32,772 nucleotides of DNA from NCBI GenBank assembly GCA_944375845.1, contig CALWAW010000039.1, forward strand, positions 1 to 32,772, written 5' to 3'. Source of the stretch: an uncultured Lachnospiraceae bacterium (GTDB lineage Bacteria > Bacillota > Clostridia > Lachnospirales > Lachnospiraceae). The position numbers were made by a program, and so were the translations under genes. The notes beneath the pieces were generated by a model. The model had not been told where the DNA came from, made no database searches, and saw only the letters and a list, made by a program, of their open reading frames with translations. Below, piece after piece: positions 22,997-23,066 of this stretch (the stretch's first letter is position 1; every line of letters starts with the position of its first letter).

Positions 22997-23025
22997 AGTT
23001 TACTCTCGGGGAGGAAATTTGTCAA
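22997..23025 (-). promoter_or_regulatory. Sigma-A promoter for the glutamate synthase operon
   Basis: On the minus strand TTGACA (23025-23020), a 17-base spacer, and TAAACT (23002-22997). The start site is predicted near 22990, about ten bases before the terminator hairpin. Confidence 0.85.
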
Positions 23026-23037
23026 TAATAAAAATGC

Positions 23038-23066
23038 TTGACACGAAAAAAAACCAGGTGTATACT
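23038..23066 (+). promoter_or_regulatory. Sigma-A promoter for pyrG-purF
   Basis: TTGACA (23038-23043), 17-base spacer, TATACT (23061-23066). Its -35 is 12 bases away from the -35 of the divergent glutamate synthase promoter. Confidence 0.88.

Follow-up and report, generated by a model that had tools for sequence, protein, structure and literature searches.

The window, the whole stretch of 32,772 nucleotides analysed here from a contig of an uncultured Lachnospiraceae bacterium, contains two gene sets that point away from each other. On the minus strand lies a split glutamate synthase comprising the GATase-type subunit gltB1 (21807-22910), the FMN/Fe-S subunit gltB2 (20312-21817) and the GXGXG subunit gltB3 (19572-20300). 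On the plus strand pyrG, encoding CTP synthase (23175-24788), is followed by a gene for a purF-like amidophosphoribosyltransferase (24785-26215), the two overlapping by 4 bases. All these functions were assigned with Pfam, which upheld the three enzyme identities (glutamate synthase, CTP synthase and PurF-type amidophosphoribosyltransferase) given in an earlier sequence-only reading. The start of gltB1 was taken at the ATG at 22910, as in relatives, while the mechanical open reading frame begins at 22931. With this start and the pyrG start at 23175 the intergenic region spans 264 bases (22911-23174), as had been described. A gene for a DDE transposase (31316-32731) is found close to the contig end.

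Each strand of the intergenic region carries a predicted promoter. That of gltB1 (minus strand) has the -35 box TTGACA at 23020-23025 and the -10 box TAAACT at 22997-23002, and that of pyrG (plus strand) has TTGACA at 23038-23043 and TATACT at 23061-23066. The spacer is 17 nt in both cases, and the promoters match 10 and 11 of the 12 consensus bases, respectively. The promoter scan gave three promoter-like sites in a 901-base region compared with 0.5 (sd 0.6) in shuffles, and it re-found both promoters of the sequence-only reading together with the 12 bases reported between the -35 boxes. Based on the usual -10 to +1 distance, transcription is predicted to start near 22990 on the minus and near 23073 on the plus strand.

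Leader hairpins and terminators

Both leaders fold strongly (z = -2.72 for the minus-strand and z = -4.65 for the plus-strand leader) and, given the predicted start sites, their hairpins begin practically at +1, which agrees with the earlier description of a leader hairpin close to each start. The putative antiterminator hairpin of gltB1 (22969-22988, minus strand) has a 7-bp stem, formed by AAUGAGC and GUUCAUU, and the hexaloop AAGGAC (22981-22976) with A at position 1 and G at position 4. At -5.2 kcal/mol it is the minimum-energy fold of its segment. The intrinsic terminator of the same leader (22930-22981, minus strand) uses the loop and the 3' arm of this hairpin as its own 5' arm. In the pyrG leader the corresponding hairpin (23076-23091, plus strand) has a 5-bp stem, GAGGC with GUCUU, and the hexaloop AAGGGC (23081-23086), and folding predicts an intrinsic terminator with a 17-bp stem followed by TTTT (23081-23119, plus strand). 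Within its segment this hexaloop fold (-3.0 kcal/mol) is less stable than a rival fold (-4.2 kcal/mol); the hairpin is weak alone and would thus depend on a protein. The pyrG leader also contains a second terminator-like hairpin, GGGGCCCTTTTGGGGCCCC (23127-23147, plus strand), which was found by scanning and has no hexaloop.

Judged by sequence and predicted folds, the gltB1 and pyrG leader hairpins are one and the same element, a hexaloop hairpin at +1 with the A1 and G4 letters in its loop, whose loop and 3' arm double as the terminator's 5' arm; both features are present in each of the two leaders. A literal pattern, AAGGNCG...CGNCCTTT, was tried and discarded, having 43 matches in the genome of the window and 40 in the reversed control.

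Short leaders with terminators in front of biosynthetic genes could also house a small-molecule riboswitch, a T-box or a reiterative-transcription attenuator, and an attenuator of the last kind controls pyrG in Bacillus subtilis. We consider such a device in each of the two leaders very improbable. No Rfam family reached the gathering score in the window and none was credible at a relaxed threshold, and the leaders are too short for an aptamer. Moreover, the pyrG RNA is predicted to start without a G run, and the same element stands before genes of different end products.

Conservation of the leaders in relatives

Named genomes were scanned with the GltB1 protein, and the best 80 of 425 relatives were picked blind to their leaders. 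Among these best 80 loci, a hexaloop with an overlapping terminator occurs on the gltB1 side in 74 (the gltB1-side leader is present in 73 of the 78 loci having at least 150 nt upstream), a leader on the divergent side in 65 and leaders on both sides in 61; dinucleotide shuffles yielded a leader in 2 of 390 cases. When A1 and G4 were replaced by any of the 15 other combinations of letters at these two loop positions, the corresponding numbers were 0-8 of the best 80. The scan did not find a gltB1-side leader in six of the 80 loci, one of which has only 25 nt upstream. Tandem leaders (at least two), mostly 57-89 nt apart, are found on the divergent side in 35 of the 65 loci with a leader there. 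The second hairpin of these tandems has a hexaloop, unlike the hairpin at 23127-23147 in the window.

Stem pairing was assessed in 136 distinct hexaloops whose selection relied solely on the promoter match and the loop letters and ignored pairing. At least four of the first five stem pairs are formed in 133 of them. Pair 5 is formed in 97% of the sequences compared with 51% expected from the column composition, and pairs 3 and 4 in 99% compared with 75% and 73%, respectively. Pairs 8-12 are at chance level, which gives a stem of about 7 bp. Since the 5' arm lies outside the terminator, the fact that it pairs speaks for the antiterminator fold. The variation largely splits the gltB1 type from the divergent type, and the independent events are therefore fewer than the rows; the pyrG leaders of the family contribute further stem sequences. 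In the first leader alignment (A1, 38 candidates, with L083 and L105 left out by eye as likely coding chance matches) the members had been chosen partly by pairing, for which reason its pair counts were not used as proof.

Promoter-adjacent terminators are common, and plain 5' hairpins or constitutive terminators might merely lower expression or protect the RNA. The conserved loop letters, the covariation of a 5' arm outside the terminator and the linkage to an ANTAR gene described below all argue against such an explanation, to which we assign only a very slight probability.

The position of the hairpin is conserved as well. The -10 box begins 19-22 nt ahead of the loop in 72 of 73 gltB1 leaders, and this fixed distance indicates that the hairpin is made of the first nucleotides of the RNA. 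In the window leaders, with the hairpin at the predicted +1, no RNA is left upstream for a P1 hairpin. Among the 73 gltB1 leaders, none has an upstream, P1-like hexaloop hairpin in the 60 nt searched (89 of 1440 in shuffles), and 10 have a second hexaloop hairpin 8-120 nt downstream. As the canonical P1-P2 pair is absent, these leaders are not strict members of the dual-hexaloop class; a single-hexaloop leader probably works in the same way as that class.

The conservation also bears on the relationship between the two promoters, for which the sequence-only reading had proposed a paired and possibly competitive control of glutamine use at a single region of DNA. With the -35 boxes 12 bp apart the footprints of two polymerases could overlap, and if the polymerases excluded each other the two operons would be expressed in opposition. 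This close packing is not kept, however: in 59 relatives with both promoters the -35 to -35 gap has a median of 60 and a range of 11-134, and the conserved part resides in the RNA. Competition between the promoters is therefore unsupported, and we regard it as highly unlikely. Another proposal would be initiation control of both promoters by a single DNA-binding protein, a nitrogen or nucleotide regulator bound between them, a shared operator being common at divergent promoters. Near-consensus promoters (12 of 12 bases in 51 of the 73 gltB1 leaders), variable spacing and the location of the conserved elements downstream of +1 speak against this, and it seems very unlikely to us. What stands of the earlier proposal is the paired control of glutamine metabolism, because both leaders carry the same element and divergent pairs recur (at gltB1, between pyrG and the gene of type III glutamine synthetase (GSIII), and between glnA and gltB); competition at one DNA region does not.

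Partner genes and the ANTAR gene

Among the best 80 of 425 relatives, the divergent partner of gltB1 is GSIII in 47 loci and glutamate dehydrogenase (GdhA), with GSIII beyond it, in 20. The partner is Amt-PII, with pyrG next, in one locus, it is unrecognised in six, and in another six it falls beyond the contig. None of the 68 relatives with a nameable divergent partner within this best 80, and none of the 10 other genomes of the genus, has gltB1 and pyrG as divergent neighbours, so the recurrence of this gene pair in other genomes, which the sequence-only reading had suggested as a check, was not found. That reading would have taken as contrary evidence an adjacency unique to one strain combined with promoters that respond independently. 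The first half of this applies, the adjacency having been seen only here among the genomes compared; as a regulatory unit, however, the pair is old, and the partner gene alone differs. The relatives among the gut Clostridia keep the layout of paired predicted leaders with other partner genes; two culturable examples with twin leaders are Agathobaculum desmolans and Massiliimalia timonensis (L145, L218).

The cluster of one relative (G115) has gltB1-3 and, divergently, gdhA, glnN, amt-PII, asnB, purC, purA, a gltA-like pair, purB, pyrG and purF, with two leaders before gdhA and one each before glnN and purC. These gene orders suggest that the pair of the window arose when pyrG-purF came directly behind an old divergent leader. 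The window PyrG is 83% identical to the PyrG proteins of G115 and G051 and 59% identical to that of the genus mate G095. Neither gltB1 nor the intergenic part of the window had a match in the 10 other genus genomes, and GltB1 was not found in the genus mate; in seven of the 10 a long protein with 44-45% similarity to GltB2 is present instead. The G+C content of the gltB1-3 and pyrG-purF segment (19572-26215) is approximately 59-63%, a few percent above most flanks. Horizontal acquisition of this segment is likely, though not proved.

Elsewhere in the family, 121 genomes have both pyrG and an ANTAR gene, and in 34 of them the two are no more than 15 kb apart, where about one would be expected for a 30-kb target in approximately 3 Mb. 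In 21 pyrG regions chosen for their nearness to an ANTAR gene, pyrG, gltB and gltD stand in a row in 14, of which 13 continue into glnA-ANTAR, sometimes with an intervening gene or leader; leader-pyrG-gltB-gltD-glnA-ANTAR is an arrangement often seen in these regions. In several family genomes (G049, G126, G073, G066 and G081) the ANTAR gene is located within approximately 250 bases upstream of pyrG. A strict scan covering 57 of the 128 genomes with a PyrG match (L048 was left out, having no upstream sequence on its contig) placed a leader directly upstream of pyrG in nine, compared with 9 of 1140 shuffles, and in 16 of the 57 when four-pair stems were allowed by eye. Twin divergent leaders between pyrG and GSIII are present in G035 and G059. 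In addition, glnA and a full-length gltB diverge from twin hexaloop leaders in G104 (L241), which makes a third kind of head-to-head pair.

A single ANTAR gene was found in the genome of the window, directly behind glnA, and the glnA leader bears the same motif, its hexaloop fold being marginal. Of the 150 family genomes, 131 have an ANTAR gene; of the 14 control genomes, none has one. The leader model had matches in only 54 of the 150 family genomes (E <= 0.03, strict filters), namely in 53 of the 131 ANTAR-positive and 1 of the 19 ANTAR-negative ones (Fisher p = 0.0018); the sole ANTAR-negative genome with a match (G129) is 86% complete. In the genome of the window, the covariance model R1 gave seven matches, with a promoter and a terminator only at pyrG, gltB1 and glnA-ANTAR. 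All three belong to the training set, and the result therefore says only that there is no other strong match. The remaining four (one of them in recA) were set aside by eye as coding-like and without a terminator. Leader-like loops missed by R1 were seen by eye upstream of gdhA and glnN of the same genome (L225/L222 loci), AACGGT on a 3-bp stem in the former case and GAAGGC, with G at position 1, in the latter.

The ANTAR proteins from the loci collected here, 34 in total, were compared with EutV, as was the protein encoded in the genome of the window. No receiver domain was found by Pfam in the latter. An aspartate at the phospho-acceptor position of the receiver, as placed by eye, occurs in 0 of the 34 family proteins; the site is occupied by C, S, T or a similar residue in GIVVCGYRL-like motifs and by N in most INAPL-like motifs. 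Since this aspartate is absent, phosphorylation is unlikely to be the signal. The ANTAR proteins of L130 and L131, two of the loci where the ANTAR gene lies shortly upstream of pyrG, belong to a second branch, in which this site is Asn. Of the RNA-contact residues of EutV, M172 is kept in 34 of 34 proteins, R175 in 4 of 34 and R177 in 0 of 34. The position of the ANTAR gene behind glnA suggests that glutamine synthetase or glutamine is the input.

Proposed mechanism and comparison with known systems

We regard it as quite likely that ANTAR antitermination via a single hexaloop co-induces gltB1-3 and pyrG-purF. In such a mechanism, both operons would start at strong, probably constitutive promoters, and the terminator would halt the RNA within approximately 50 nt. 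As an alternative fold, the first nucleotides of the transcript would form the A1/G4 hexaloop hairpin by using the 5' arm of the terminator. Under a shortage of nitrogen or glutamine, the product of the glnA-linked ANTAR gene would bind and hold this hairpin and so keep the terminator from forming, and gltB1-3 and pyrG-purF would be read together. Control would be a co-regulation in trans, acting on two RNAs, and polymerase competition for overlapping promoters would be unneeded. Probably one nitrogen-sensing RNA-binding protein reads both switches. The direction (on when nitrogen is short) we infer by analogy from the report on NitR as cited in the available part of PMC6316151. The leader comparisons support the reading of the glutamine link as a shared co-regulation by RNA antitermination. 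Points against it are the single hexaloop, the changed RNA-contact residues of the ANTAR proteins, the weak pyrG and marginal glnA folds, the small share of pyrG regions and family genomes in which a leader was detected, and the six gltB1 loci lacking one in the scan.

In a wider sense, we lean towards the view that these leaders belong to a widespread clostridial glutamine regulon with a reduced ANTAR switch, in which a single hexaloop at +1 is combined with an unphosphorylatable pseudo-receiver ANTAR protein, control reaches enzymes of CTP, purine and carbamoyl phosphate synthesis, and head-to-head twins have an exchangeable partner; the two-hexaloop rule would then not be general. If this is true, glutamine metabolism in dominant gut Clostridia, whose nitrogen regulation is poorly known, is controlled by a compact RNA switch, and glutamine supply and glutamine-dependent nucleotide synthesis are joined in one regulon.

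In the literature searched, which was without most subscription journals, we did not find a single hexaloop at +1, a linked ANTAR branch that has lost the receiver aspartate, CTP and purine enzymes as additional targets or conserved head-to-head pairs. What is already known is the ANTAR control of GS/GOGAT genes. NitR is an ANTAR protein for these genes in Clostridium saccharobutylicum (Stutz 2007, as cited in the available part of PMC6316151). The protein proposed here resembles NitR in being an ANTAR protein of clostridia with a link to glutamine synthetase and glutamate synthase, and the glnA neighbourhood agrees with this. Compared with what that source gives for NitR, the targets here include CTP synthase and PurF and, in relatives, purC, guaA, carA, gdhA and GSIII. 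Putative ANTAR RNAs before glutamate synthase genes have also been described in Desulfotomaculum, and these resemble the present case in having several leaders and a nitrogen regulon; in the part of the source at hand, the set came from a dual-hairpin model, which by definition misses single-hairpin leaders (PMC3369931).

The available parts of the literature describe ANTAR proteins as stabilising a hairpin with a hexaloop, whose formation is incompatible with that of the terminator (PMC3369931, PMC8934654), and nitrogen genes as being under ANTAR control via a terminator overlap of this kind (PMC3369931). As far as described there, the targets of EutV, NasR and AmiR share with the leaders of the window the A1/G4 hexaloop, the overlap with the 5' arm of the terminator, the association with nitrogen genes and an ANTAR gene in the genome. 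In contrast to those dual P1-P2 targets, the leaders of the window have one hexaloop at +1 and neither P1 nor a linker, and the ANTAR proteins, compared with EutV, are without the receiver aspartate and most of the RNA-contact residues. According to the available part of the structural paper on EutV, neither hexaloop is dispensable in vivo, and sites with a single hexaloop are to be expected only if transcription imposes no time limit (PMC8934654). Natural single-hexaloop leaders located inside terminators would make this statement testable.
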